Source of the DNA: Gemmata massiliana
GTDB taxonomy: Bacteria; Planctomycetota; Planctomycetia; Gemmatales; Gemmataceae
Assembly (NCBI GenBank): GCA_000531095.1
Contig: HG799462.1
Location: forward strand, 593,545-657,544
Reading direction: 5' to 3'
Length of the DNA stretch: 64,000 nt
Every line of letters begins with the position of its first letter. The first letter of the stretch is position 1. Under the pieces are notes generated by a model. It had not been told where the DNA came from, searched no databases, and saw only the letters and a program-made list of their open reading frames with translations. This document shows positions 5,963 to 49,583 of this stretch, piece by piece. The position numbers and the translations under genes are program-made.

Positions 5963-6286
5963 TCAGCGCGGCTTGTTCACGGCCGGTTGGTCCGTGCCGG
6001 GAAGTAAACCTTCTTGACGGAGGCGATTCAGCTCTTGAGCAGAGACCCGGTATTCGGGCTTATTTCCGCGGCCGGACTTTGTGCGCTGTGCGACTATACG
6101 CCCTGTCCGGCAGTGACTCCGCACGGTGTCGGGCGAGAGCTTGATGATCCGCGAGAGTTCGCGCACCGTGTACCACTCCTGCTCCGGCTGGGCCTCGGTG
6201 AGTTTGCGAAGCGACGCTTCGATTCGACCGAGGCGGGTCACTGCGTCACCAAGGGTTTGATTGATTTCTTCGAGTAGTCTCATCAT
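5963..6286 (-). CDS. Excisionase/MerR-like helix-turn-helix protein
   Basis: A 107-residue protein. After a short coiled N-terminus (LLEEINQTLGDAVTRLGRIE) comes a helix-turn-helix of excisionase type (WYTVRELSRIIKLSPDTVR), then basic RSHCRTGRI and a hairpin-like segment KPEYRVSAQELNRL. The ATG at 6286 shares its A with the TGA of the upstream gene (TGATG), suggesting coupled translation. Likely a DNA-binding regulator or recombination directionality factor, though no recombinase is adjacent. Confidence 0.72.
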   Translation of the reverse strand: MMRLLEEINQTLGDAVTRLGRIEASLRKLTEAQPEQEWYTVRELSRIIKLSPDTVRSHCRTGRIVAQRTKSGRGNKPEYRVSAQELNRLRQEGLLPGTDQPAVNKPR

Positions 6287-6615
6287 CACAGAGTGAACCA
6301 TTTTTGGACGAGGGGGCACGACAACGCTTCGGACCACTTCGGACGCGGGACGTGAAAACGTCGTCCGTCCTCCCGGAACTTCACTGCCGTGAAGCGGTTG
6401 CACGTGAAGTCGTCCGGTTGGCCGACCGTGAACATTTCGGGTGCTAGCGTGTAGGCAACTGCGAGGTGAAGCACCTTGACGCCGCCGAGAACTCGGATGC
6501 AGTCGTTGTCCCCGGTGGGTTGCTGGTGGTAGTCATCGTTCGTTTCCCAGGAGGAGTTGACTAACCTGCGAACCAGACGCTTCACCACTTCCGAGAATCG
6601 TGACCAGTGAGCCAT
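6286..6615 (-). CDS. Hypothetical protein, first gene of the minus-strand set
   Basis: A 109-residue protein starting MAHWSRFSEVVKRLVRRLV at 6615, with GGAGAAGCGC before the ATG. The middle (CIRVLGGVKVLHLAVAYTL) looks like beta strands. Not recognised. It overlaps the HTH gene by a TGATG junction, so the pair is probably made together. The 183-bp gap to the divergent sigma-factor gene should hold promoters for both directions; I see no clear consensus boxes. Confidence 0.6.
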   Translation of the reverse strand: MAHWSRFSEVVKRLVRRLVNSSWETNDDYHQQPTGDNDCIRVLGGVKVLHLAVAYTLAPEMFTVGQPDDFTCNRFTAVKFREDGRRFHVPRPKWSEALSCPLVQKWFTL

Positions 6616-6798
6616 TGCGCTTCTCCTTGTCGGCACGGAGCGATCGAGCGCTACCGGCCGGGTGGTTCTGCTGAGTTGTGGCCGCCGACTCTAGCTGGGG
6701 TTACGATGACCAAAACCACGCGCCAGCAGCCAGCAGTCAGGGGGGAGTGGATCGCCTCCGTACTGTTAACGCGCGGTCATAGAGCGGAGGGGAAAAAA

Positions 6799-7413
6799 AT
6801 GTGGCCGGCAACCTCCAACACCATGATCGAGGCGATGATCGGCGAGGCGGTCGATCCTGCTACCCGAGAAAACGCCTGGAAGAGGTTTGTCAAAGAATAC
6901 GATCAGCCAGTCCGGACGCTCTGTAAGGCACGCCTCCCCACAGGAGATCTTGACGATGCCGTTCAGTGCGTTCTCGTGCAATTGTTCGCCAATCTGAAGA
7001 AATACGCGAAGCAGACAGACGGGCAGTTCCGACGGTGGCTGTCGATCGTTATCCGCAACGCGGTCGTGACGGAATATCGTCGGGGGCGGCACTTTACGTC
7101 CCTGGGGCCGCTTCCAGATGACGACACACTTCAAGAGCAACCACGGTCCGGCCCGATCCGCCTCGCGGACGAACTCGCTAACGCGGTCGGGCAGAAACTC
7201 GACGACGAATTGAAATGGCTACTGCAAGAGGTTCGCTCCCGGGTCTCCGACCGGGACTGGGACATCTTTGTTCGCTTTGACGCCGGAGAAGGGCCGGCGG
7301 AGATCGGGGCGACGCACCAACTGGACGCAGCAAACACCGGCAAGATTGCTCTGAGAGTTAAACGGCTCGCGGCGGAGCTGTGGAGTACCCGCCCCGGCCA
7401 CTCGAACTCCTGA
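6799..7413 (+). CDS. ECF-type RNA polymerase sigma factor
   Basis: A 204-residue ECF sigma factor. Region 2 is visible as DLDDAVQCVLVQLFANLKKYAKQ followed by FRRWLSIVIRNAVVTEYRR near residues 50-95, and region 4 as SDRDWDIFVRFDAGEGPAEIGATHQL with the helix-turn-helix near residues 155-190. The ATG at 6799 has GGAGGGGAAAAAA upstream and is preferred to the longer frame from 6607. The Ser/Thr kinase gene begins 12 bases downstream, an association common in planctomycetes, where the kinase is thought to control the sigma factor. Confidence 0.88.
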   Translation: MWPATSNTMIEAMIGEAVDPATRENAWKRFVKEYDQPVRTLCKARLPTGDLDDAVQCVLVQLFANLKKYAKQTDGQFRRWLSIVIRNAVVTEYRRGRHFTSLGPLPDDDTLQEQPRSGPIRLADELANAVGQKLDDELKWLLQEVRSRVSDRDWDIFVRFDAGEGPAEIGATHQLDAANTGKIALRVKRLAAELWSTRPGHSNS

Positions 7414-30389: not shown

Positions 30390-30522
30390 CCGCACAGGGG
30401 GAGTATCTTCATGCCCTCGGCACGAAGGCAGGACTTGCCACCCGACGCGCGAGCGCTGATTGCCGTTGAGCGTTTTGCCCGCAGAGGCTAGCCTCATCCG
30501 ACCTTTGGAGAGCAGGTCGGGA

Positions 30523-31686
30523 ATGGCAAAGCGAAAACAGAAGCCGGGAGCACTCACCCCGGTCGGCGGGAAGGAATACGACGGCTTCTTAACCGGCCTG
30601 TCGGGGCTCGTTGATCAGGCCCGAGTCGCTTCGGCCCGCGTTGTAAACGGCATCATGGCTGCCACTTACTACGAAGTGGGCCGGCGCATCGTCGAGTTCG
30701 AGCAAGGGGGTAAGGAACGAGCGGGGTATGGTGAGGGACTGCTCAGCCGGCTCGGAACCGACCTCAGTAAGCGTTACGGCCGGGGGTTCTCTCGGCGTAA
30801 CCTCGAACAAATGCGAGTCTTCTACCTGGACTGGGAACTCAACCAGACCCCTTCCGGAGCATTCCAGCTACGGGCCAAAATCGAAGACGCCGCAAAAACG
30901 CAGACACTGTCTGCGCTTTCGTCCCCCCTGATGACGAACGAGACCTTCCCCCTTCCGTGGTCCCACTACGTGCGGCTGATGACGGTCGGAAACCGAACCG
31001 CCCGGCAGTTCTACGAGGAGGAAGCCATCAAGGGCGGGTGGTCCGTCCGCCAGCTCGACCGGCAGATCTCGACGCAGTTCTACGAGCGCCTGTCCGGGTC
31101 GAAGCGAAAGGGCGAGCTCCTAGAGAAGGCCCAGGTCGTTCAGCCCGGCGACATCGCCGAAGCGTCGGAACTGGTCCGCGACCCCTACGTCCTGGAGTTT
31201 CTGAATCTGACCGATGAGTACGGAGAAAGCGAACTCGAAGAGGCTATCATCCGAAACCTCGAAAGCTTCCTCGTGGAGCTTGGCCGCGGGTTCACGTTCG
31301 TGGCCCGCCAGCGAAAGATCCGGATCGACGCCCAGTGGTACAAAATCGACCTACTGCTCTTCCACCGCCGGCTTCGCTGCCTCGTTGTCATCGACCTGAA
31401 GATCGGTGCGTTCACCCACGCCGATGCCGGCCAGATGAACCTCTACCTGAATTACGCGAAGGAACACCTCACCGAACCGGGGGAGCACGACCCGGTCGGG
31501 CTAATTCTGTGCAGCGAGAAGTCGGACACGGTGGTGAAATACGCGATGGGCGGAATTAACGCGAAGGTGTTCGCTTCGGAATACCTGACCGTGCTGCCCA
31601 GCGAAGAGGAACTTCGAAAGGCCATCGAGCGGGCAAAGCTCGCCCTGGCCTCCGCTAACCTTCTCCCTCCAGGTGAGAAGACGTGA
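30523..31686 (+). CDS. DUF1016/YhcG family PD-(D/E)xK nuclease
   Basis: A 387-residue protein from the ATG at 30523. The N-terminal YhcG_N region is visible as YYEVGRRIVEFEQGG, LSKRYGRGFSRRNLEQMR and WSHYVRLM. The C-terminal nuclease core has YKIDLLLFHRRLRCLVVIDLK, giving D and D-x-K of the PD-(D/E)xK fold, and QMNLYLNYAK. These nucleases are frequent in defence islands next to restriction or abortive systems. Its 3' end overlaps the opposite-strand gene by 32 bases. Confidence 0.9.
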   Translation: MAKRKQKPGALTPVGGKEYDGFLTGLSGLVDQARVASARVVNGIMAATYYEVGRRIVEFEQGGKERAGYGEGLLSRLGTDLSKRYGRGFSRRNLEQMRVFYLDWELNQTPSGAFQLRAKIEDAAKTQTLSALSSPLMTNETFPLPWSHYVRLMTVGNRTARQFYEEEAIKGGWSVRQLDRQISTQFYERLSGSKRKGELLEKAQVVQPGDIAEASELVRDPYVLEFLNLTDEYGESELEEAIIRNLESFLVELGRGFTFVARQRKIRIDAQWYKIDLLLFHRRLRCLVVIDLKIGAFTHADAGQMNLYLNYAKEHLTEPGEHDPVGLILCSEKSDTVVKYAMGGINAKVFASEYLTVLPSEEELRKAIERAKLALASANLLPPGEKT

Positions 31687-32344
31687 GCGCAGGCTGTTCC
31701 CCCGCCCAGCGCTCAGCCCTCTTTTCGAATGGCCGGTAGATTCGCCGTTCGGCCGGAACACAGCTCCTTGGCACCAGTTCGAACCCGGCAACCTTCCGCA
31801 CCCGGTTGATCGCCCGCCAGATGCAAAGCAGTTGTCCTCGCACCGCGGCGTAGGGTTCGTAAGGCACCGCCGCAAACTCCCCCGCCAGTGTTTCAGCCGA
31901 CCGGTGGAGTGCAAGCGACACGAAGTATGCCTTAAGCGCCCGGTATTCCTCCCGCTCGATTCGAACAACGGCCTGCCCCTCCTTCGAGCTAATCGAGTAG
32001 CCCTCAACTTTGAGCGGCACCCGTCGGAGGTCTCTCACCTGCCCGGCCTCTTCCTCGAAGAACGAGTGTTCGCCGTGGGTGGCCAGCAAAACGAACGTGT
32101 CCCGGAAGCGGATGTATTGAAGGTTCGCTCGGCCCGCCTGCTTTCGCCGGTAGCGGGTGAACTTCGAGCAGTCGATGTCGTAACGAGTGACCAGCTTCGA
32201 GTCGATTGCCGTCGGGTCTTTCTTTGCCGGCACGCGGCCGATGACGTAGAAGAAGTAACCGTTCGTGACGTAGCTCACGGCCACCTGCTGGACGAACCCG
32301 GGAAGTGACGTTGCCTCGACTCGGTAATCTGCGCGGTAGCTCAT
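31655..32344 (-). CDS. Unknown protein downstream of the large folded region
   Basis: A basic protein of about 229 residues starting MSYRADYRVEATSLPGFVQQ at 32344; the frame stays open to a GTG at 32434. It looks globular: strands around VAVSYVTNGYFFYVIGRVP, a segment KLVTRYDIDCSKFTRYRRKQ and a C-terminal basic helix RAINRVRKVAGFELVP. I do not recognise a family. The start has no clear ribosome site but lies just after a small hairpin of the folded region (32345-33785), on the same strand, and may depend on that RNA. Confidence 0.65.
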   Translation of the reverse strand: MSYRADYRVEATSLPGFVQQVAVSYVTNGYFFYVIGRVPAKKDPTAIDSKLVTRYDIDCSKFTRYRRKQAGRANLQYIRFRDTFVLLATHGEHSFFEEEAGQVRDLRRVPLKVEGYSISSKEGQAVVRIEREEYRALKAYFVSLALHRSAETLAGEFAAVPYEPYAAVRGQLLCIWRAINRVRKVAGFELVPRSCVPAERRIYRPFEKRAERWAGEQPALTSSHLEGEG

Positions 32345-33785
32345 CAGGGCGAATCGGCGAAGTTCGCCGTGCTGCTTCCCAAGCCCGGCAAGGGCGGGAA
32401 AAGAGAGGACGTTGTTTGCGGCACAACGTCCCACAAGGCCGTGTCGTGAAAAACCGCCTGGCTGTTCGCTTCCGCTTGGTCACCGCGTTCCCACTAGTTT
32501 CAGTGGTTGCAGTTGCCCATATATAGCGGTAGCGGAGCAAAAACCTCCGGCGGCACTCGGATACAACTCGAGTGTCCGCCGTCCGTTCGCTGCCAAAGGA
32601 CTATGCTCCCTCCCGAGAGCACACTCGTTTAGCCGCTGTTACGCCCCCGCCAGGGGTTGGTTTTCACCGCACGTCATCGAGACGGGTTAAACCCGTCGGG
32701 GCTTTCGTCGTGGCTACGTGCCCGGCACCACCCGTAAGCACACCAACACACCCCGGACTGCCAGCCCGGAATATGCCTCGCTCCCGCGAAGCTCCTACTT
32801 GCCCCCCGCTCCCACGCTCCAGCATTTGAATCACTCGGCTGATATGCCGAGCACCGGGGGACCACCCCGGCCGCTGGACCGCTTCCCAGGTTAGCTTCCA
32901 AACGACTACTTCCGTCGGTCACGTCGCTAGAGGGTCTCCCCTCACCTCACCGCCGTATGTCCCGAACTCCCGTTCGGGCATAGTTTCCGACAGCCTCTCG
33001 GCTCTCGATTTCGGGGGGCCGAAACTAGAAGCGCCCCCCTACCCATCAGCGGTGTCGTTTCGCGGCTTGGCCTCGCGTCTCCGACGGAACTGACCGGCAA
33101 GCCCTTGCGGGCCTCTCATGGTTGAGCTTTTCGCGGTCGGCTGTTTCGGCCGATCCCCGGGTCTGTTCGAAGACCCGGCCCCGCCTGTCACCAGGTCGAG
33201 GACTCCCCACGCCGGCACGGTTGAACGGACCTGACGGGACTTCCACCCGAATTGCCGTTCTAAGACGGCTATGGCCCGGACCCCCGAGACGGGATTAGCT
33301 GCCAGTTACGGCAGAGCACCCGCTTCGTCTGGAACGTCCTTCAACGGGAGCAGTGCTCCCAAGGAAGGTGTGTCCCTGTCGCCCTGTTTCTGAAACACTA
33401 AGTCACATCGGATAGAACGCCGGGATTCGGCCCTCAAGTTTACCTCTGCCATACGAGGGCAGCGGCCTTGAGGGAATTACTCCGACGAGCCTCCGTCGCA
33501 CCGGACGAGCCAGTCTCCTGGCATCCGGCGCTACGGGTGTCAGCACCTCTGCGGTTCGAAAACCGCGGGCGGTTGGTGAGACCGCCGACCCTTAGCCCGA
33601 TTGGTGATCGGGCTTACCGGGCGGTGCTGCCCGTCTCGATGAACGTCCGCAACGCTTCACGTTAAGGACAGCCGCAGCCGTTTCCGGCCGCTAAGCACTG
33701 GTATGCGAGAGCGACAGGTGACGGTTGCTCGGGGGAGAATTCCCGACCTGCGAGGTGTCTCGGTTTCGTGAAACGAACTAAGTCC
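32345..33785 (-). ncRNA. Candidate large structured non-coding RNA (about 1.4 kb)
   Basis: No credible protein gene on either strand, but a dense run of local perfect stems: 32407-32415/32423-32431 (9 bp), 32549-32580 (two-tier), 32834-32851, 32854-32870, 32961-32978 (7 bp), 33157-33178 (8 bp), 33431-33474 (8 bp plus inner stem), 33501-33528 (two-tier), 33551-33566, 33568-33586 and 33594-33614 (8 bp). On the minus strand several loops are GNRA, for example GCAA at 33105-33108 and GGGA at 32968-32971, which favours minus-strand transcription. It runs directly into the protein at 32344. No rRNA, and no reverse transcriptase of a group II intron, is recognisable. Confidence 0.6.
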
Positions 33786-33797
33786 CAAGGGTTCTGA

Positions 33798-33884
33798 CGT
33801 GTCTCTGGCGTTGCACCTAAAACCCTCCTAGGCGTGTCTCTGGCGTTGCACTTTCCCCGGGCAGGCGTGTCTCTGGCGTTGCAC
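33798..33884. repeat. Three 19-bp iterons, candidate plasmid origin
   Basis: CGTGTCTCTGGCGTTGCAC occurs exactly at 33798-33816, 33833-33851 and 33866-33884, all in the same orientation and spaced 33-35 bases, about three helical turns. They lie 190-280 bases beyond the 3' end of the Rep-like gene and before a long AT-containing palindrome at 33894. This is the arrangement of Rep-binding iterons at a theta-type origin. Confidence 0.8.
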
Positions 33885-33893
33885 TTACGGGGG

Positions 33894-33912
33894 AAATTGC
33901 CAGTGGCAATTT
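33894..33912. promoter_or_regulatory. 19-bp palindrome AAATTGCCA-G-TGGCAATTT
   Basis: A perfect palindrome with one central base, next to the iterons. Its 17-bp core recurs at 35609-35625 in front of parA. A binding site for ParB, ParA or Rep is likely. Confidence 0.7.
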
Positions 33913-34075
33913 TGGGCTAAGCATTTGGTTATTCAGAGGAATCGAGCCGTCTTGATGCACGAGGCTTCGAGCGTCAAAGAATACTGGATCAAAGATCTCT
34001 GTAAACAAAGGGATCGAGTCTGCTTTTGGAGGAGTGTAATTTCAGGAGCGGAAACAGGGTGAATTAAGCCGATTC

Positions 34076-35422
34076 TCAATCCCCCGCTCCGTCTGGCTCA
34101 GCCGCTCGAAGCTGCACGCCGAACACCGTGTCTTGGAGCCGTCGAAGAACGGCCGCAGTGTGCTCGGGTGTGGCTGACGTTTGGGCCGCCGAGGGCGCAG
34201 AGCCGGGTAGGGTGCGAGACTCCTGACGCTCTCGACTTCGAAGCTCATGCCACCACTCCGGCGGTGTGCGGCCAGAGCTTCGGGCCGCTTGGAGGTTGTC
34301 CACGAGATACGCTTGCGGGGTGCGCTTAAAGAACTTCGCCCCATACCGCTCGCGGGCCGCAAGCGTGATATCGAGCCATTCCCGCAACATCGGCTTCGGG
34401 AACTCTCGGAGCAACCGGTTCGCAGCCGGGGGATCGAATTTCAGTGCCAGCAGGGCATCTCGAAGCGGCGAGCGGGAATCTGCCTCGGCAGTCGGTAGGG
34501 GAGGCTTGTTGAACCGCGGTCCGCGGTGAAGAACTACCGAGTAGCCCGACCCGGATTTCATCGCACTTGCTTGCTTCTCGATCGTAACCGGACCGGCAAG
34601 AATTCCCGCATCGACGAGGGCGGAAAAAACACGCTGAAGCTTGATGCGCTGATTCCGCGGGGCGACGGTAGGGGAGAAGCCCAGCACATCAACCGCCAGG
34701 TGTTCGAGGTCGAAGCGGGGAGTCGTGTCACGCCGATCGAAAATCTTGCTGACGAGCAAGAACAGTCGTCGAGCGGCCGGGTCGAGTGCCCGATAACATT
34801 CGAGGTCGAATCGGAACTGACCGCCGAGTGGTCGAACCAGGTCGAAGAAAATCGGGTCCCAAGCGATCCGCCAGGCGCGGGAACTTTGGGGGTCAAGCGG
34901 CAGGCTGTAACTGAGAAACCCGAAGCGAACCTTTCGGTGCTCAGCCCGAACCGGATCGTAGAACGCATCACTGGCGTAGCTAACCTGAGCCAGACGATCG
35001 AGGGTGTTGGCAAAAGCCTGATACTGCCGACCACCTCGTTTACCGTGCTGGTCGATCATGCCGAGCTGTCGCAGGCAGAAGTGCGGGGTTGCGTGAAACT
35101 CGCTATCCGCTCCGGCTCCCGAGACGCTACTCGGGTCACAGTCTGCAAAAGTCAAAGCGAGCAGTCCCCAGAGGTAGAACTCATCAGAAGGAGAGAGACC
35201 ACCGGGGCAGGTCACTTTGACTGCCGCCTTCTTCTGATGCCGGTTCTTATCCGAGTAGTAATAACCGGTTTCGAAGATCAGGTTTTCACGAAGTGACTGT
35301 GTCGGGTCGAGTGGGCACAGGGCGTGCTCGACGAGGGTGAGTTGACCAAGCCCCGCCGACGAACGACGGATCGGGGATGACGGAGCGATTTGAATTCGTT
35401 TGTCGTTCGTCGCCCGCGGCAT
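34076..35422 (-). CDS. Plasmid replication-initiator-like protein
   Basis: A 448-residue protein from MPRATNDKRIQIAPSS (35422); the longer frame to 35485 is possible. The body has the pattern of RepA/TrfA-type initiators: a region of strands and helices (GLSPSDEFYLWGLLALTFAD), TLDRLAQVSYASDAFYDPV, LDPAARRLFLLVSKIFDRR, a winged-helix-like RIKLQRVFSALVDAGILAG, and a C-terminal helical/disordered tail. It lies between the iterons and parA, which is why I call it Rep. Family match is from layout, not a search. Confidence 0.65.
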   Translation of the reverse strand: MPRATNDKRIQIAPSSPIRRSSAGLGQLTLVEHALCPLDPTQSLRENLIFETGYYYSDKNRHQKKAAVKVTCPGGLSPSDEFYLWGLLALTFADCDPSSVSGAGADSEFHATPHFCLRQLGMIDQHGKRGGRQYQAFANTLDRLAQVSYASDAFYDPVRAEHRKVRFGFLSYSLPLDPQSSRAWRIAWDPIFFDLVRPLGGQFRFDLECYRALDPAARRLFLLVSKIFDRRDTTPRFDLEHLAVDVLGFSPTVAPRNQRIKLQRVFSALVDAGILAGPVTIEKQASAMKSGSGYSVVLHRGPRFNKPPLPTAEADSRSPLRDALLALKFDPPAANRLLREFPKPMLREWLDITLAARERYGAKFFKRTPQAYLVDNLQAARSSGRTPPEWWHELRSRERQESRTLPGSAPSAAQTSATPEHTAAVLRRLQDTVFGVQLRAAEPDGAGD

Positions 35423-35626: not shown

Positions 35627-35693
35627 GGCAGTATGGCAAGCCCCGGCGCAAGTCCGCCCCGAGGTGTATGGCCCCCGGCATCGCCGGAGGAAC

Positions 35694-36548
35694 ATGCCCA
35701 CAACAACGGTCTGCTTCATCAACCAAAAGGGCGGCTGCGGGAAGTCCAGTTCGACCTACCACCTCGGCGGGGCACTCGCCGTAAAAGGGCGAAACGTCCT
35801 CCTCGTCGATTGCGACCCACAAGGCTCCTTAAGCCAAGCCTTTTTCGGCTCAGCCGCCGTCGAGAACCTGTCCGCCAGGGAAACGCTTGCGGCGGTGTTC
35901 GATCCTGACGCCATGCTCGACAACCCTGCACGGCTTGCGGTCCCAACCGGCTTTGAGCGATTGAGCATCCTCCGGGCAAACCAAACGCTTGCCCCATACA
36001 ACCGCCCCGAGCCGGAGCGAGAAGGGCTCAACCAGTTCCTCCTTCGTGACGCCCTCTCAGACATCACCGGCTACGACATCGTGCTTATCGACTGCCCGCC
36101 AAATCTTTACCTGGCCAGTTGGAACGCGATGCTCGCTTCTTCTCACGTCGTCGTTCCGGTTCCCCCAGAAGACTTCGGTGCCCAGGGGCTTCGTGTTGTG
36201 CATCAGGCCATCGAGCAAGCCTCGCAGCTAAACCCGCGCTTGCATCTGACGGGTCATCTCGTCACGCGCTACGACGGCCGACTGGCGGTTCACCGGGCCT
36301 ACATGCAAAAGCTTCGCTCGCTCTACCACGAGTCGATCTTCGAGGCGGTCGTGCCCGAAGCATCCGCGTTCAAAGTGGCACTGACGTGCCGAACCCCGGT
36401 CTCGCACCACATGCCAGGTTCGAAAGCCGCCAAAGTCATGGCCGAAGTTAGTGACGAGTTGCTGGCGAGAATCGCCAGCACGTTCTTACCCGTCATCCCT
36501 CCCGGTGACATGGAGACGAGTGCAACGAAGAAGCAGAGCGTGGGGTAA
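35694..36548 (+). CDS. parA: Chromosome/plasmid partition ATPase ParA
   Basis: A 284-residue ParA. The deviant Walker A is INQKGGCGKSS near residues 9-19, followed by NVLLVDCDPQGSLSQAFF, then DIVLIDCPPNLYLASWNAML and VPVPPEDFGAQGL, with all ParA/Soj motifs present. ATG at 35694 with CCGGAGGAAC upstream, preferred to the in-frame start at 35664. parB begins two bases after its stop. It is a small ParA (no N-terminal HTH), so ParB is expected to bind the partition site. Confidence 0.95.
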   Translation: MPTTTVCFINQKGGCGKSSSTYHLGGALAVKGRNVLLVDCDPQGSLSQAFFGSAAVENLSARETLAAVFDPDAMLDNPARLAVPTGFERLSILRANQTLAPYNRPEPEREGLNQFLLRDALSDITGYDIVLIDCPPNLYLASWNAMLASSHVVVPVPPEDFGAQGLRVVHQAIEQASQLNPRLHLTGHLVTRYDGRLAVHRAYMQKLRSLYHESIFEAVVPEASAFKVALTCRTPVSHHMPGSKAAKVMAEVSDELLARIASTFLPVIPPGDMETSATKKQSVG

Positions 36549-36550
36549 CA

Positions 36551-37462
36551 ATGGCCAGCACCAGTGACCTTCTCAAGCAAGCAGTCGGTAACCTCGAAGA
36601 GTCGATGGGCGTGCGTAGTGTTGACTTACGGCCGACACTGACGCCGGTATCTAATCCGAAAGACGTTGGCCGACGACCACTTCGAAACGTCGGCCAGGTG
36701 GACGTGAACCAGGTCGTGCCCGACCCGACCAACCGCGAATCGAGTTCACCGAAGACGGCCTCGACAGTCTTGCCAAGAGCATTCGAGACAACGGACAGTT
36801 GCATCCGGTGCGAGTGCGCTGGTCGGCTGAACTGAGTAAAATGGGTCATCATCTCCGGCGAACGCCGCTGGCGAGCAACTCGCCGGGCCGGACTTGAAAC
36901 CATCGATTGCGTGTTCGTCGATGGCGAGCTCTCCCGCGGAGATCTTCTCTCGCAGCAGCTCATCGAGAACTTACTTCGAGAAGATCTGCGACCGGTCGAA
37001 GAAGCGAAAGCGTTTCGGGAGTTGCTCACACTCAACGAGTGGACTGGGAAGCAGCTTTCGGAAGCACTTCGAATTCCGCCCTCGAAGGTCACCCGCTCAC
37101 TGGCACTCTTGGAGTTACCCTCAGACTTGCAGCACCAGGTCGAACTCGGCGAGCTTCCCGCACGAAGTGCTTACGAGATCGCAAAGCTTGGAGATGACGA
37201 GAAGCGCCGCAAGCTTGCCGAAGCAGTGCAAGACGGTGGCCTTACCGTTGAAGACACGAGAAAGGCGGTGCGGACCCGCCAGGGTAAAGCCACACCGAAG
37301 GAGCGCGGCACGCGGGAGAAGTATGCTTCCCCCGGCGGTGTTCTTGTCAGCGTGACCGCGGGGCGAAGCGTGACCGATATCGAGATTGAAGCCGCACTTA
37401 TTCACGCGCTGAGCGTGGTTCGAAAACGGCTCGACGCGACTGGCTCGCCAACCGCCGCTTAA
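36551..37462 (+). pseudogene. parB: ParB partition protein, two apparent frameshifts from A-run indels
   Basis: Frame 1 from 36551 gives MASTSDLLKQAVGNLEE... NVGQVDVNQVVPDP, then breaks near 36728-36732. The next frame reads RIEFTEDGLDSLAKSIRDNG and QLHPVRVRW, and breaks again at the AAAA of 36838-36841. The third gives WVIISGERRWRATRRAG, continuing through DLLSQQLIENL, the HTH (KQLSEALRIPPSKVTRSLALL) and the C-terminal dimer domain to 37462. Restoring one A at the first site and removing one at the second makes a continuous ParB of about 303 residues. Probably intact in the organism. Confidence 0.9.
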
Positions 37463-37601: not shown

Positions 37602-38831
37602 TCACGCATCAAACACTGACTGAATGGCCTGTCGCTGCTGGCCTGGAATCAAGTGCCGGTAGCGACGACGCATCGCCTCCGTCGTGTGGCCCACCCATTC
37701 GTCGATCATCCGCTGATCCACGTTCTTTGCCGCACAGTTCGAAATAAACGAGTGCCGAAAGACGTGCCAGCCGCGCAGGTGCTTCCACTTCGACTTCGCA
37801 AAGGCCGTCTTAAATAAGTCGTCGGCGTCGTTTGGCGTAAATGTCTCTTCGGTCGTGCCCTCGGCAAAGCACGTCGGAAACGCGAGGATCGCTCCGGCAC
37901 TTTTCTCCCGCCATTTGCGAAGCACGTCGATGAGCGACTGTGCGAGCGGAACTCGTCTCGTCGTCTGTTTCCCCCGGGCCTTCTTCCGCTCGTGGAGCAC
38001 AACCGTCTGCGACGGGAAGTCGATATCCTGCCAGCGAAGCCGCATCACCTCACTTCGCCTGGCCCCAGTCATCGCCGCAACGCAGAACATCGGGTGAACA
38101 ACCGCGTAGCGGCTTTGCGTTTCGGCGTAGCGAAGCATCTCAGCAAGTTCTTCCAGCGTGAGGAACACGCAGTCCCACAGGTCTCGGCACTCACCTTCCG
38201 TGATGTTCTCTCGCTTCACCAGTTCACTGACCTCGTCGAAGGTGCGAAATGGCGGCTTCTCGCTCGTCTTCGGAAAGCGAATCCCCTGATTCGGGAAGCG
38301 TCCCGTCAGCATCCCCGCTTGCACCGCCCAGTTCCACGCTGCTCGAAACGTGGCGAGTTCCTTCTTCGTCGTCACCGGGCTGAGCTTTCGCTTGTGGATG
38401 CCGTTACACTTCGCCCGGCGGTTGACGTGCTCTTGGAGCTTGATCATCGTCAGCGACTGCACGTCGAAGGATTCCCCGAGCGACTCGACGAAGTGAATGA
38501 AGTGCGTGCGAATCGTTTGCAGTGTCTTCGCCTCCAGACTTCCTTGCGAGTGCGTTTCCGTGTAGCGGTCCCGGAACTCGCCAAGCGTCAGACGTGCCCG
38601 AGGCACCGGCGTGTCGTTGAGCTTTCCGTCGGAGAGGAGAAACGTCGGCAGGTCGGCGTCTGGTGGAAGAAGCAATCGGCCGCGCTCGAGCAGCCGGATG
38701 TTTTCTTCCACCCGCTCGACGCAGGCTTGTGCCTCACGCTCGTTCTCGGTGCGAAGTGGGTGTTGGTATTTCTGCCCGGCGTAGCGAAAGACGAGGCGGA
38801 ACTTCTTTCCGCGGCGTTCAAGCGAAGCCAT
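37602..38831 (-). CDS. Tyrosine integrase
   Basis: A 409-residue integrase from MASLERRGKKFRLVFRY at 38831. It has an N-terminal arm-binding-like segment, a SAM-like domain (SLEAKTLQTIRTHFIHFVES) and a catalytic domain with TGARRSEVMRLRW (Arg), WHVFRHSFIS (His-x-x-Arg), the second His in VGHTTEAM and the Tyr of RRRYRHL. It faces the par genes and is probably the integrase of the plasmid-type element. The outer boundary of that element is not visible. Confidence 0.92.
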   Translation of the reverse strand: MASLERRGKKFRLVFRYAGQKYQHPLRTENEREAQACVERVEENIRLLERGRLLLPPDADLPTFLLSDGKLNDTPVPRARLTLGEFRDRYTETHSQGSLEAKTLQTIRTHFIHFVESLGESFDVQSLTMIKLQEHVNRRAKCNGIHKRKLSPVTTKKELATFRAAWNWAVQAGMLTGRFPNQGIRFPKTSEKPPFRTFDEVSELVKRENITEGECRDLWDCVFLTLEELAEMLRYAETQSRYAVVHPMFCVAAMTGARRSEVMRLRWQDIDFPSQTVVLHERKKARGKQTTRRVPLAQSLIDVLRKWREKSAGAILAFPTCFAEGTTEETFTPNDADDLFKTAFAKSKWKHLRGWHVFRHSFISNCAAKNVDQRMIDEWVGHTTEAMRRRYRHLIPGQQRQAIQSVFDA

Positions 38832-39261
38832 GTCGTGTGCCCTCTGCCGATGTGACACACGCGGATTGCTCGCAGTGCGTCGCATTTCGGCGAACTGGCA
38901 CAAACCCCACACTACTTGGTGACTGTCCCCAATCTGTCCCCAGATGAACCTTTCTTGGAGAAGGGCCTGTTGCGCCCGTCGCCGTAAAGCTATGCTGGAA
39001 AGAGGTCTACGAAGACCGGATTCTCAGCGGTGCTTTCAGGCGAACTAGTCGCTGCATCTGACCCAGACCGTGACATCGGTTATAGGGATTCATAGCTCAC
39101 TCAGGCTCGCTGGGCAGGCGAGCCGTGTCGTTCGGCCACACGGGGCGATTTGCAAGCAACGTAGTTGGTTCCTGTCGCTGCCGCCGGTACCCATTAGAAT
39201 CGGCGGCGCTGCGCGCTGTGCAGGCGTCAAATTACACACTAACGCTGGGAGCGTGTTACAC
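38832..39261. other. Gap between integrase and small gene
   Basis: About 430 bases. The 37602 integrase promoter should be here, but I see no clear boxes. The sequence has no reading frame of quality and no copy of the tRNA-Arg end. The boundary of two elements may lie here. Confidence 0.4.
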
Positions 39262-39606
39262 ATGCCACACGGAGATTCCGGAAATTTGGATGCCCGTGCA
39301 TGGGCAGCGGAAGATCAGCAACGTGCGAGGGAAGCTTCATTCAACTCCGCGCGGGCGCAGGGCCAAGTCGTCGTGTGCATCGACAGAGATGTCCATCGGA
39401 GAGTGGCAGAACTGCGATCGCAAGGGCAACACGAAGCTGCAAAGGCTCTTGAAATCTCAATACCAGAGGTGAAGGCAAGAATCGGGATCGACGGAGTCCA
39501 CGTTAAGGTGGGAGGCTGGGATTGTACGGTCCGTCCGATGTTCCATGTAGACACAGCAAAAAGAAGCGTAGAGTTTCGAGGAGTCGATGCGACATGTACG
39601 AAATGA
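39262..39606 (+). CDS. Hypothetical protein
   Basis: A 114-residue protein from MPHGDSGNLDARAWAAEDQ with GGGAG about 11 bases upstream; the longer frame to 39070 is less likely. A short strand-rich middle (QGQVVVCIDRDVHRRVAEL) is followed by helix and strand segments (HVKVGGWDCTVRPMFHVD). Not recognised. Isolated on the plus strand between two minus-strand elements. Confidence 0.5.
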   Translation: MPHGDSGNLDARAWAAEDQQRAREASFNSARAQGQVVVCIDRDVHRRVAELRSQGQHEAAKALEISIPEVKARIGIDGVHVKVGGWDCTVRPMFHVDTAKRSVEFRGVDATCTK

Positions 39607-39760
39607 GATGCCGGGTCGTCGCGTCAGGATCACTCGACGTTGATGCGGGATGTGCTCCAGACGAACACGACCCGTTATCAAATGAGAGCAGTTGAGTTGT
39701 TCCGTATTGGTAAGCAGTGTGCTTAAGTCCATATCCAGCCGTCCGTCGTTGGGCGTTTTT

Positions 39761-40017
39761 AGGTCACCCAGGTCACCCTCTCGATTTCGAGGGTGACCCG
39801 AGCAGAGCCTTGTTTTTCAAGCTCAGGTCACCCAGGTCATAGTGGTCACCCTGTTTTGGAAATCCCATCTCAGCAACAAGAGCCGAGGTCGTAATGAGTG
39901 GTCCGGAGTTATTCGGGGATAAGGACAGGGTGACCAGGGTGACCAGGGTGACCTAGCCCTGTTTCGCAAGCGTTTGCGAAGGTCATAGCGGTTTCGGTGA
40001 GGGTGACCTGGGTGACC
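39761..40017. repeat. GGTGACC iteron array, candidate replication origin
   Basis: The heptamer GGTGACC or its complement occurs in full at about 39762, 39771, 39792, 39826, 39844, 39929, 39938, 39947, 40002 and 40011, often 9 bases apart. Most left copies read GGTCACC and all right copies read GGTGACC, so the array is arranged convergently. A TTCGCAA-GCGT-TTGCGAA palindrome is at 39963-39980. It directly follows the 3' end of the primase-helicase gene, as iterons follow or flank the primase-helicase gene in phage P4-like satellites. Confidence 0.8.
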
Positions 40018-40020
40018 TAA

Positions 40021-42741
40021 CTACATCGGAATGTCGCTCTCGGGGCTCCAACCGGCCGAATCCCGGCGCCGGCGATCGAACTCGACGAGCAGTCCGTCGG
40101 GCCGGCCTTCCGACCAGGCGACGCCGGCGTAAGCGTGCGGCCGGTCCTGACCGACGCGGAGCCGGGTCTTCTTCACGGCCCGGTGCGCCTTCCGCAGCTC
40201 GGCCCCGAAGTTCCCGTCGTTGAGCGGCTTGTACCCCTTCAACCGGCACCACGATTGGTAAGCGGCGAACAGCTCGCCCACGCGCAGGTACGCGCCCTCG
40301 TCTTCCTTCACGTGCTCGTCCAGGAACTGCTTGTGGGGGTTGCACAACTCCCGGTGCTCGGCCTTCGCCGCGGTACACACGGCCGAGCTGGTGAACCCGC
40401 CCTGAGCGTGGAGCCGGTGCAGGCCCGTGAGCGCCCAGTTGAGCACGCCCGGCATCTCGCCGGATGCGACCCACCACTCGGGCGAGTCCATCCCGCGGAC
40501 CCGCTCGGCGACCGCGATGACCACGTTGAACGGGACGACCGTGTACCGGCGCCACACGCCCTCGGTGCGGTCCGCGAACCGGGGCAGGATGTTCGTCGAG
40601 AGGAGCAGCCGGGCGGTCGGCCGCGTGTTGAGGGCCGACTTGTTCTTGCGGTCGAAGTTCATCAGGTCGCCGGACACGAAGCTCTTGAGCTTGGCCTCGG
40701 CCACCTTGTCCATCTCCCCGACCTCGGCCACCGCGTTCACGAGCTTCCCGAGCGTGCTCGCGAGTGCGAACCGCTCTCCAAACTCCTCCAGCGGGACCGA
40801 GGCGTAGTTGTAATCCCCGATCAGTGCCCGGAGCACGGCCAGGAACGTGCTTTTCCCGTTGCCCCCTTCGCCGGTCATGATGAAGAACGACTGGAACCCG
40901 GTGTCGAACCGGAGCAGGTAACCGGCCATCTCCTGGAGCACGAGCTGACGTTCGCGGTCCCCGTCGGTGACGCGCGCAAGGAACGCCTCGAACTTGGGGC
41001 ACGCGGCCCCGGGTTTGAACTTCACGGGCAGGGCGGCCGGGGTGAAGTACAGCGGGGTCGGGGGCGCGAGCACGGCCCGCCCGGTTGCGAGGAGCTCGGG
41101 CACATCGATGAGCCCGTTGGCACACGCGATGTACTCGCGCGCGTCGGGATCGGGCCGGAGCTTGGGGATGTGCCCGGGGCGCAGCGCATCGGCCTTGAGC
41201 ATGACGGGCCAGGTCGTGTCCCCGTCCAGGTGGCACATCGAGGCCGCGGCCTGGACCGCGTTGGTGACCTTGCGCCCGTCGAGCTTCACGATCGTCGGGC
41301 GCGCCGACTTGCGCCCGTCCTGGTCCCACGCGAGGACCGCGGACCGGTGATCCGCCTCGCACTCCTCGCGCAGCGTGGCCCACGCGCGCTTGTCGAAGTC
41401 GTCGTCGGCCACGGTCACGTACCGCCCGTTCCGCCACTCCCACCATTCGGCCCGGTGGTACACGAGCGTGGGCAGCCCGTCGGCCCGGGGCACGAGCAGC
41501 CGGCCGAGCCGGTGCGGGTCCAGGAACTCCTCGTTCACTGCTTCTTCGGTCACGGGATCAACGGGCCGGTCCTCGGACGCCGGGACCGAGCGGTTGTGCT
41601 CCCGCGGTGCCGTCGGCACGGGGCGCTGTGATCGGACTGGGCCGTACCCCTCACGCCGGAGCTGCTCGGCGAGCCGGGCGAACTGGCCCGGGTACTCGAG
41701 GGCCGCGCGCAGGTTGCTCGGGTTGAGCCCTTTGTGGTCCGGAATCCCGGCCGCGTCGGTGAACCCGTAGAAGATGGGCGTGCCCGACACGAGCATCAGG
41801 TTCCCGCTCTTGTCCCCGTTCTTGTCGGGCCGCCGGAAGTCCCAGCGCTCGCCGCGGTGCCCGACCGGAACCCAGCGGTGCCGCTTGAGCAGCTCCCCGA
41901 CCGATTCCATCGTCTGCGCGCGGTTGTACGCGGCGAACACGTCGGTCTCGGGATCGGTCGAGCCGCCCGGTGTGAGGGGCACGTGCGGGTGCGGTGCCGA
42001 CGGCACGGGGCGCGGGTTCGGGTCGAACGTGCGGGCCTCGTCCGGGATCAGCTCGACCGGGTCACCCCCGATCCCGAGCACGTACTCGACCGCCGCGTCC
42101 CCGTCGAGCCACTCGCTCCCGCTCCACACGCGGCCCCAAAAGTCGCGCCCGTGGTGCCGGCCGATGAGCCGGAGCCAGTTCCCGTACTTCGTGTCCCCGT
42201 CGATCACGGCCTGCTTGGGGAACACCTCGGGCGGCTTGGCGAACCCGTACTCGGCCGCGTCGCGCACGAGCCAGCGCCCGAACGCGAACAGGACCGGCCC
42301 CTCGACCGCGCCCTCGAACAGCGCGCGGACGTGGAACCCGCCCTTGCCGTTGGACTCGCTCAACAGCGGAGTAAACCCGAGCACCGCGAGTCGGTCGTAT
42401 ATCGCCAGCGCGAAGCGCTCGTTCGCGTCGGGATCGGCTTTGGTGCCCGGGTGTGCGTCGATGTCCACTCCGACCCACTTGCCGAACCCGTCGGCCCCGA
42501 GCGCGTGGAGCCCGATCACGTCCTCGGTCGCGCTGGCCCGGAAGTGGCGCGCAAGCAGGCGCAGGTCCACGTACCCGGGCTTCGCGCCCCCGGCCGGGCG
42601 CGTCGTGCGCCGGACGTCGCCCGTTTCAGGATCTCCGTAGCACCCGCCGCACCGGTCGGTCCGGTTCACCAGGCGGGTCAGCGCCCAGCGCGCGAGGTTC
42701 TCGGCGCGAGCGGTCCACGGGTTGGCAATCGCCGTCGTCAC
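40021..42741 (-). CDS. AEP-type primase fused to SF3 helicase (replication protein)
   Basis: A 906-residue protein. The N-terminal archaeo-eukaryotic primase-like domain has DID in WVGVDIDAHPG at residues 93-95 and LLSESNGKGGFHVR as the second active-site motif. The C-terminal half is a D5-type superfamily 3 helicase with Walker A GEGGNGKST near residue 627, FDRKNKSALNTRPTARLLLSTNILPRF and a C-terminal winged-helix-like tail. It can start and unwind replication of the element. It is the last gene in a series of overlapping minus-strand genes and is followed by an iteron array. Confidence 0.9.
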   Translation of the reverse strand: MTTAIANPWTARAENLARWALTRLVNRTDRCGGCYGDPETGDVRRTTRPAGGAKPGYVDLRLLARHFRASATEDVIGLHALGADGFGKWVGVDIDAHPGTKADPDANERFALAIYDRLAVLGFTPLLSESNGKGGFHVRALFEGAVEGPVLFAFGRWLVRDAAEYGFAKPPEVFPKQAVIDGDTKYGNWLRLIGRHHGRDFWGRVWSGSEWLDGDAAVEYVLGIGGDPVELIPDEARTFDPNPRPVPSAPHPHVPLTPGGSTDPETDVFAAYNRAQTMESVGELLKRHRWVPVGHRGERWDFRRPDKNGDKSGNLMLVSGTPIFYGFTDAAGIPDHKGLNPSNLRAALEYPGQFARLAEQLRREGYGPVRSQRPVPTAPREHNRSVPASEDRPVDPVTEEAVNEEFLDPHRLGRLLVPRADGLPTLVYHRAEWWEWRNGRYVTVADDDFDKRAWATLREECEADHRSAVLAWDQDGRKSARPTIVKLDGRKVTNAVQAAASMCHLDGDTTWPVMLKADALRPGHIPKLRPDPDAREYIACANGLIDVPELLATGRAVLAPPTPLYFTPAALPVKFKPGAACPKFEAFLARVTDGDRERQLVLQEMAGYLLRFDTGFQSFFIMTGEGGNGKSTFLAVLRALIGDYNYASVPLEEFGERFALASTLGKLVNAVAEVGEMDKVAEAKLKSFVSGDLMNFDRKNKSALNTRPTARLLLSTNILPRFADRTEGVWRRYTVVPFNVVIAVAERVRGMDSPEWWVASGEMPGVLNWALTGLHRLHAQGGFTSSAVCTAAKAEHRELCNPHKQFLDEHVKEDEGAYLRVGELFAAYQSWCRLKGYKPLNDGNFGAELRKAHRAVKKTRLRVGQDRPHAYAGVAWSEGRPDGLLVEFDRRRRDSAGWSPESDIPM

Positions 42742-49399: not shown

Positions 49400-49509
49400 A
49401 ACGGCTCCGGGGTTTCGGGGTATGGTACCACGAAACTACCCGGGTCAGGGGCCGCTCGACAATGACGGTAGGCGGGGCGAAGTGCTTGAAAATCAGGTCT
49501 TTCGGTCAG

Positions 49510-49583
49510 TACACCCGGCGGGACTTGAACCCACAACCACCCGCTTAGAAGGCGGGTGCTCTATCCAGTTGAGCTACGGGTGC
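49510..49583 (-). tRNA. tRNA-Arg, anticodon UCU
   Basis: A complete cloverleaf on the minus strand: acceptor GCACCCG with CGGGTGT (first pair G-U), D arm AGCTCAACTGGATAGAGC, anticodon stem CCCGC with GCGGG and loop containing TTCTAA (anticodon TCT), and T arm with GTTCAAGTC. No CCA is encoded. The 3' end faces the integrase at 48188 and is the likely attB half-site. Confidence 0.95.

Follow-up and report, generated by a model that had tools for sequence, protein, structure and literature searches.

The question raised by this locus is what occupies the roughly 1.4 kb at positions 32345–33785 of the window, i.e. of the whole 64,000-nucleotide stretch of Gemmata massiliana DNA that was analysed. 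The sequence-only reading had described dense RNA-like folding without a gene and proposed that the minus strand encodes a very large structured RNA, in the size class of GOLLD, ROOL or OLE, that forms a unit with a basic protein and matches no described family. According to our analysis, the minus strand of the region very probably encodes a circularly permuted (CP) group II ribozyme and its AcpG protein, a predicted maturase. CP group II RNAs (formerly T-large), a rare kind of self-splicing RNA with rotated domain order, were described in iScience (Roth et al., 2021; PMC8637638), and the window RNA is a member of this ribozyme class, in which it belongs to a distinct clade.

The minus strand of positions 32700–33690 reached a minimum folding energy of -491.8 kcal/mol, compared to -435.9 kcal/mol (sd 7.9) for 20 shuffled sequences (z -7.1). 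The plus strand of the same segment yielded a z of -6.0, and a coding control of equal length (34200–35190, minus strand) a z of -0.2. Open reading frames lying wholly within 32345–33785 did not exceed 92 aa. Two minus-strand frames leave the region: one of 259 aa from a GTG at 32434, which is an extended version of the AcpG frame, and one of 178 aa from 32540 in another frame. The RNA limits were refined to approximately 33690 and 32405 on the minus strand (~1.3 kb), with the AcpG gene following; the core through the D4 strand measures ~1.0 kb, and ~1.3 kb is reached by counting all conserved sequence to 32405. The gene-less, RNA-like character of the region was thus borne out.

Its proposed novelty was not. 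The Rfam model RF00029 (group II intron D5-D6) matched positions 33533–33407 of the minus strand with 47.2 bits, above the gathering cut-off of 40 (E 3.7e-6; E 1.2e-7 in a shorter search of 32000–34100). A match to a known intron had been named beforehand as a refutation of novelty. No other Rfam family, those of the GOLLD, ROOL and OLE size class included, matched 32000–34100 up to E 1. A new class of the GOLLD, ROOL or OLE kind is ruled out by the RF00029 match together with the domain anatomy, which is that of a CP group II RNA.

Domain 5 (33531–33498, GCGCCGGATGCCAGGAGACTGGCTCGTCCGGTGC) was located by RF00029 and by covariation, and carries a CGC triad, a UC bulge and a GAGA loop, the latter being a GNRA loop as claimed for the minus strand. 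The triad reads AGC in 25 of 30 aligned sequences. Domain 6 (33497–33407) ends in CTATCCGAT, with a bulged branch-point A at 33413 and the 3' splice site placed after 33407. The branch A (A119 of the alignment) is invariant among the aligned sequences and bulges from a covarying helix of 12 pairs, which is paired in 360 of 360 cells over 30 sequences and in which 10 pairs changed on both sides. The structure of the whole D5-D6 alignment showed 161 both-side changes versus 41 (sd 5.5) after shuffling and at most 26 when partners were slid; as the D5s of this alignment (30 of 31 sequences kept, L121 dropped) were chosen by pairing, D5 covariation is biased and D6 provides the clean test. On the 5' side, positions 33690–33539 contain the covarying helices 33629–33623/33547–33539, 33612–33608/33600–33596 and 33585–33582/33572–33569, probably the counterparts of P1 and P2 in CP group II RNAs, a naming drawn by analogy.

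Downstream of D6 follows a linker, or 'exon', of 22 nt (33406–33385), which lies between D6 and GGGCG in the aligned relatives too. Its last six bases, GAAACA, constitute IBS1. The predicted 3' splice motif in the window is AT after D6, and the predicted 5' splice site is at GGGCG. In the relatives, D6 ends in CTATCCNAT, followed by the linker and GGGCGA, and the succession of D5, D6, linker and GGGCGA was found in 40 of the 48 sequences inspected; the other eight depart from this exact pattern in the branch motif, in the splice motif or by a long linker. In a few relatives, the linker is longer and was called at up to 142 nt.

AcpG homologues turned up in 13 of 99 related genomes, a count that includes the window's own genome. 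Six plasmid records carry one as well (a planctomycete plasmid, four of Leptolyngbya boryana and one of Calothrix), as do 97 stretches from contigs of named genomes, the best 80 of which were analysed. By their titles, these 80 comprise 54 Planctomycetota, 10 Verrucomicrobia, 4 Acidobacteria, 3 Proteobacteria (one being the isolate Thiocystis violacea), one each of Nitrospinaceae, Calditrichota and Fimbriimonadaceae, and 6 named only as bacteria; the query was of the planctomycete type, so that these counts are no unbiased census, and most loci are metagenome bins, in which lone odd phyla may be misbinned.

A covariance model of the piece from D5 through D6 and the linker to the splice site, made from the aligned sequences of this clade and termed R1, matched 69 of the 80 AcpG loci (including L124, which shares its contig with L099 as a second copy, and L054, which resembles L053), in 69 of 69 cases on the AcpG strand. 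The 11 loci without a match comprise only 111–987 nt of contig 5' of AcpG. The distance from D5 to AcpG is 1103–1510 nt in 58 of 62 sequences and up to 2147 nt in four; at L053 and L054, D5 lies ~6 kb from AcpG. At L053 (23–6612), ParA and other plasmid-type genes are situated between the RNA and AcpG. In another R1 search, 22 of 27 sources matched. No R1 match was obtained in L022 (where the RNA lies beyond the fetched stretch, compare L053), in L037 (contig end), near the AcpG fragment in L034 and the truncated second AcpG copy in L025, or on two AcpG-bearing Thermus plasmids (L045 and L046). Calothrix plasmid5 (L040) carries tandem CP RNA copies at 1660–1800 and 3811–3942, and AcpG stands directly behind the second copy only.

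When 294 genomes of the phylum were drawn independently (that of the window among them), 28 gave R1 matches at E ≤0.001. Eight of them scored at least 78 bits, and the next one 43. AcpG was present in seven genomes of this draw, all of them among the eight strong R1 carriers and collinear with the RNA; in the eighth, the contig ends ~0.5 kb past the RNA start. The 20 weaker genomes (<44 bits) probably contain D5-D6 of ordinary group II introns and could include divergent CP RNAs. The claim of an RNA upstream of, and collinear with, a basic protein therefore stands as a conserved RNA-protein unit across relatives. R1 also found pPNAP05 (47.2 bits, E 1.3e-9) and, weakly, three Thermus plasmids: pTT8 (21.4 bits, E 0.003), where the RNA is divergent from a ~260-aa (259-aa) gene, together with pTB2 and pTthSNM1-1f, for which the two scores were 27.1 and 22.3 bits.

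The remaining domains are located 3' of the linker. Domain 1 (33384–32887) starts with GGGCG; its basal stem, 33378–33375/32890–32887, retains 4.0 of 4 pairs over 15 distinct combinations versus 2.26 after shuffling, and further helices in it covary. The covarying helices within 32882–32698 are the probable D2 (32882–32873/32823–32814) and D3 (closing helix 32805–32801/32702–32698), named by position. Just 3' of D3, positions 32696–32690 pair with 33539–33533, one base before D5 (6.33 of 7 pairs over 30 distinct combinations, versus 5.19, sd 0.15, after shuffling, with 0 of 2000 shuffles as high). On the strength of this covariation, the 5' flank of D5 and the 3' flank of D3 are apparently the two strands of a D4 stem split by permutation, and the polarity of the pairing, which is that of a D4 stem, implies that the RNA was opened inside D4. 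A scan of all column pairs yielded the D1 basal stem, 33538–33533/32696–32691 and EBS1/32501–32494, in addition to local helices. Distinct combinations were counted once in the shuffle tests of these pairings, yet kinship inflates them.

The canonical order from D1 to D6 was rejected, since D5-D6 precede D1 here. A canonical intron could still be imagined, with D1-D4 encoded farther in the 5' direction, within rep or past it, and with the 1 kb 3' of D6 unrelated; taken by itself, D5-D6 is what the 3' end of an ordinary intron would look like. However, in an eight-locus cluster the 200 nt 5' of D5 are conserved and the next 300 nt are not, while the D1 basal stem, EBS1 and the D4 pairing all reside 3' of D6 and covary, EBS1 doing so with the linker that itself follows D6. 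Covariation and conservation limits refute this arrangement, to which we assign a negligible probability.

The structure was also evaluated over the full length of the RNA. RNAalifold (span limit 260), applied to a MAFFT alignment of 57 of 62 sequences (those too long, short upstream or near-identical were dropped), predicted 182 pairs; standard pairs occupy 9641 of the 10262 cells, and changes on both sides were counted 2488 times. When partners of the same 182 pairs were slid by 1–2 columns, only 3753–4062 cells were paired, with 523–607 both-side changes. The alignment was made from sequence only and the structure derived from the same alignment, and the test is therefore biased in favour of the structure. 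Together with the folding z, these conserved and covarying stems argue for the very large structured RNA on the minus strand that had been proposed, and the stems of D5, D6, D1 and D4 covary among the homologues. They also bear on whether the locus is a decayed or scrambled remnant of an ordinary group II intron without function. Six RVT_1 matches in the genome, the AcpG fragment in L034 and the truncated copy in L025, both without R1 nearby, would be in keeping with decay. Such a remnant is nevertheless very improbable, considering the compensatory changes in D5, D6, D1, D4 and EBS1-IBS1 across dozens of lineages and the identical permuted order seen on named planctomycete and cyanobacterial plasmids.

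The exon-binding loop EBS1 in D1 (CTAGTTTC, 33028–33021) has two partners, the linker IBS1 (33390–33385) and a second one at 32501–32494. At the variable positions of EBS1-IBS1, 2.02 of 3 are paired versus 1.22 (sd 0.12) after shuffling (0 of 2000 as high, 43 distinct combinations), 5'-site calls with linkers >100 nt being uncertain in this test; without a fixed register the signal is weak (5.82 versus 5.51, sd 0.13). In the window itself, 5 of 6 positions pair. The second partner (GAAACTAG) forms the loop of a small hairpin and covaries with EBS1: 8 of 8 pairs are formed in 27 of 30 distinct combinations, and the mean is 7.73 of 8 versus 6.08 (sd 0.16) after shuffling (0 of 2000). The EBS1-like loops of Leptolyngbya and of one Calothrix copy have an 8-nt partner as well, amid many chance partners; none was found for the best pPNAP05 EBS1 candidate or for K2D. 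The second partner could be a staple, a switch or a target.

A switch might mean that the main task of the RNA is gene or replicon control, with EBS1 alternating between the linker (active) and the 32501–32494 loop and thereby setting the expression of rep and acpG; we regard this as possible and rather unlikely, and we are equally doubtful that the 32501–32494 pairing represents an inactive state or a self-cleavage site. Pairing with the second partner (7.73 of 8) does surpass that with the linker, this partner changes in step with EBS1, and rep and acpG flank the unit on a shared strand at 9 loci with homologous rep. On the other hand, a loop-loop pairing could be purely architectural, and it was missing for the best EBS1 candidate of pPNAP05. 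Splicing with the linker as exon is the reading we retain.

At its 3' end, the RNA closes with a conserved hairpin at 32431–32407 (GGACGTTGT...ACAACGTCC; consensus gguUGuGCC...gAAnCAacc). Located just before acpG, this hairpin (GUUGUGCC...CAAC) is a possible site for AcpG binding or translation control. A D4 that continues as conserved RNA past acpG was rejected, as the 300 nt after the AcpG stop are unconserved (24% identity) in the eight-locus cluster. In a distant set of 14 loci, the last 300 nt before AcpG showed 22% by a crude measure, versus 20% after it. Because conservation is no better there in this distant set, the 3' part of the RNA rests on covarying pairs.

The protein encoded behind the RNA (32344–31655, minus strand; 229 aa, pI 9.6) had been considered to match no described family. 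It proved to be distantly homologous to AcpG from Thermus plasmids, and its relatives start at the equivalent of ATG 32344 (M-x-Y-R). Against a profile of five Thermus AcpGs it scored 46.2, and 60 column-shuffled decoys did not exceed 24.9; hhalign gave E 2.5e-6 with a probability of 89 (E 3e-5, weaker, with a larger alignment). A single Thermus AcpG sequence gave no significant match, and plain tblastn between the window AcpG and Thermus AcpG found none in either direction. The profile-profile match to Thermus AcpG (TTHC007, here taken as pTT8 6164–6943), which also lies beside a CP RNA, extends over ~150 columns; unlike the window protein, Thermus AcpG has a longer C-terminus and is divergent from the RNA in pTT8. 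As a side observation, acpG overlaps the convergent gene of a DUF1016/YhcG nuclease (30460–31686, plus strand) by 32 nt (31655–31686).

AlphaFold models of the window AcpG (78 relatives as alignment) and of a second homologue, 41% identical, reached pLDDT values of 91.8 and 89.9. With VIA-align, the best eight rows for the window model were group II intron reverse transcriptases (Z 9.8–8.7), followed by G2L4, DGR and DRT9 enzymes, with Prp8 at Z 7.8; for the second model, the best nine rows were group II intron enzymes (Z 9.8–8.3). Reverse transcriptases, telomerase, spliceosome/Prp8 or viral RNA polymerases make up 48 and 49 of the best 50 rows for the two models, respectively, and the others are the AbiA polymerase (twice) and one GGDEF domain. 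A Z of 9.8 is only moderately above the 7–8 that is typical, according to the tool, for models without clear matches. Foldseek matches were weak (best E 1.6e-3 and 2.2e-3, TM-score ≤0.44), and against viral models there were weak polymerase-like rows only. The order of the predicted elements, a strand (32–37), helices (44–54 and 61–69), hairpins (75–88 and 116–129) and further helices (131–144, 150–158 and 166–185), fits a palm followed by a thumb.

Polymerase residues were not found in this fold. Position 79 is an arginine in 79 of 79 AcpGs, at the hairpin where YxDD would be expected (Y77-x-R79); five of the 79 have [YF]xDD elsewhere in the chain. No D or E conserved at ≥80% occurs among the 79 in residues 29–42 and 76–98, the places of motifs A and C being judged from the fold order. 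Sequence homology to reverse transcriptases was rejected (16.8 for the profile against 28 RVT_1 proteins, decoys up to 24.8). Searches of Pfam (RVT_1 included), NCBIfam and PHROGs returned nothing significant, the AcpG profile obtained one chance-level row among PDB sequences, and AcpG was absent from the viral contigs searched. The protein was not filed as a reverse transcriptase because YxDD and the motif A aspartates are absent. From the modelled folds, we consider AcpG likely to be a remote, polymerase-dead relative of an intron-encoded protein, a link to maturases that appears to have been previously unnoticed. The six RVT_1 matches in the window's genome indicate that ordinary retroelements coexist with the unit and could supply reverse transcriptase in trans.

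If the RNA is a CP ribozyme, AcpG could still be a passenger that binds RNA or DNA for plasmid maintenance, its palm and thumb likeness reflecting a common alpha-beta arrangement. The lack of sequence similarity to reverse transcriptases and Foldseek E values >0.001 would be compatible with that, as would the position of the unit next to rep and par genes and the RNA-bearing genomes without AcpG mentioned in the available text of Roth et al. (PMC8637638). We judge it unlikely, since polymerase-type proteins account for 48 and 49 of 50 rows with group II intron enzymes first for both models, the secondary-structure order is that of palm and thumb, and RNA and protein are linked in 69 of 69 loci and in 7 of 7 genomes. 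A predicted maturase thus remains the preferred assignment.

The genomic setting resembles that of a plasmid. Three iteron-like repeats of 24 nt (33886–33795) separate the RNA from rep; they lie outside the ribozyme, and the plasmid iterons noted earlier beside the RNA were confirmed as context, the unit adjoining plasmid replication genes. Iterons as a conserved part were rejected, with exact repeats of ≥14 nt upstream of D5 at 3 of 20 loci (the window, L076 and L104). The upstream rep-like gene (35485–34076, minus strand) has no Pfam match itself; its homologues are found 5' of the RNA on the same strand at 9 of 80 loci. Divergent from it is ParA (35664–36548, plus strand; PF13614, E 2.9e-30), with homologues at 26 of 80 loci, 24 of them 5' of the RNA. 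Among 121 ORFs 5' of the RNA (50 loci, 8 near-duplicate loci dropped) were 15 ParA-type AAA_31, 12 RPA replication initiators and 4 ParB. For 70 of the 140 ORFs picked 3' of AcpG, one ParB_N match was obtained, and ParA and RPA were absent among the 25 families listed of 73. The window belongs to a 1.75-Mb contig of a 9.3-Mb genome, and the replicon may therefore be integrated here. Positions 36551–37462 hold a ParB-like frame interrupted by a stop codon, with the ParB HTH domain in 36911–37462. A tyrosine integrase and a P4-type primase (TIGR01613) within 37602–42741 and a tRNA-Arg at 49509–49583 make an integrated element possible; attachment repeats of ≥14 nt to the tRNA-Arg were not detected in the window.

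By analogy to the published reaction, the 2'-OH of the bulged A33413 in D6 would attack the 5' splice site at 33384, ahead of GGGCG. This would release the 3' end of the linker, and that end, kept in place by EBS1-IBS1 pairing, would in turn attack the 3' splice site after D6 (33407), so that a 22-nt RNA circle and a branched RNA would result, the latter consisting of the D5-D6 arm joined 2'-5' to D1-D4 and the acpG message. The rotated RNA can still fold because the D4 stem is apparently re-formed by the 5' flank of D5 and the 3' flank of D3. As the models suggest, AcpG is most probably what this lineage has kept of its intron-encoded protein, a palm and thumb resembling those of a reverse transcriptase without polymerase residues, and most probably it binds the RNA and assists folding and reaction as a maturase. 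The unit would be part of the replicon, 3' of the rep and par genes, and may be of benefit to it.

A more tentative reading, which we hold to be possible but not the favoured outcome, concerns the origin of the permutation. Read from D1, a circular replicon would represent a complete intron in ordinary order with the 22-nt linker as its sole exon; D4 would be acpG, the rest of the replicon, par, rep and the iterons; AcpG would be the D4-encoded protein that Roth et al. (PMC8637638), in the text available, considered lost, polymerase-dead like Prp8; and the permutation would date back to an intron turning into, or capturing, a circular plasmid. The second EBS1 partner, where IBS1 is directly followed by paired bases as in joined exons, could be a self-target.

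Few large ribozyme classes have been discovered recently, and CP group II ribozymes are one of them. A maturase-like fold would offer a direct mechanistic hypothesis for AcpG and a reason for its linkage to the RNA, and the split D4 stem would account for the ability of an intron in rotated order to fold. If AcpG is a reduced intron-encoded protein, it would exemplify a bacterial protein related in fold to reverse transcriptases whose only remaining role is to assist splicing; such a step is what is usually proposed to have given rise to Prp8. The fixed arrangement of rep before the ribozyme and acpG after it, together with a second partner for EBS1, makes roles in replicon control testable in bacteria that pose no hazard.

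Compared to known systems, AcpG resembles group II intron reverse transcriptases/maturases and Prp8 in its predicted palm and thumb fold and its basic character, and acpG resembles an intron-encoded gene in its position 3' of D3 on the intron strand, i.e. in D4 beside a group II ribozyme. Unlike group II reverse transcriptases, AcpG has 229 aa, no conserved acidic residues in motifs A and C and no detectable sequence similarity. In the available text of Roth et al. (PMC8637638), no homology was found for AcpG and its function was left open. We found no later papers on the CP group II class or AcpG in the open-licence literature.

For the RNA, the same text gives the order D5-D6-D1-D2-D3-D4, GGGCG and NU splice motifs, circles of 15–86 nt, a plasmid context and an in vitro reaction, and names pPNAP05 and pTT8 as carriers, the RNA of pTT8 being divergent from the AcpG gene (PMC8637638). 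To the extent of that description, the window RNA agrees in having D5-D6 5' of D1 and internal, reversed splice sites, in GGGCG, the 22-nt linker, the branch A and EBS1-IBS1, and in its plasmid context with an AcpG gene nearby; R1, moreover, finds both named carriers. The P2-D2 loop-loop pseudoknot of published CP RNAs (PMC8637638) had no clear covarying counterpart in the column-pair scan, the loops concerned being poorly aligned. Again within what the source states, the window RNA differs in length (~1.3 kb if all conserved sequence is counted and ~1.0 kb for the core, versus ~900 nt) and in D5: published CP D5s have AGC with an unpaired A, which is present in the R1 matches of pPNAP05 and Thermus and not in the window, whereas the triad base of this clade is paired (A-U or C-G) as in ordinary introns. 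AcpG of this clade is always 3' and on the same strand, unlike in published loci, where gene orientation varies and some genomes have no AcpG (PMC8637638), and EBS1 of this clade has a second partner. Carriers in Planctomycetota, Verrucomicrobia, Acidobacteria and Cyanobacteria extend the class to phyla beyond those named in the available text, and, as far as it goes, the maturase-like fold of AcpG, the split D4 stem and the second EBS1 partner add to what it reports for CP group II RNAs.
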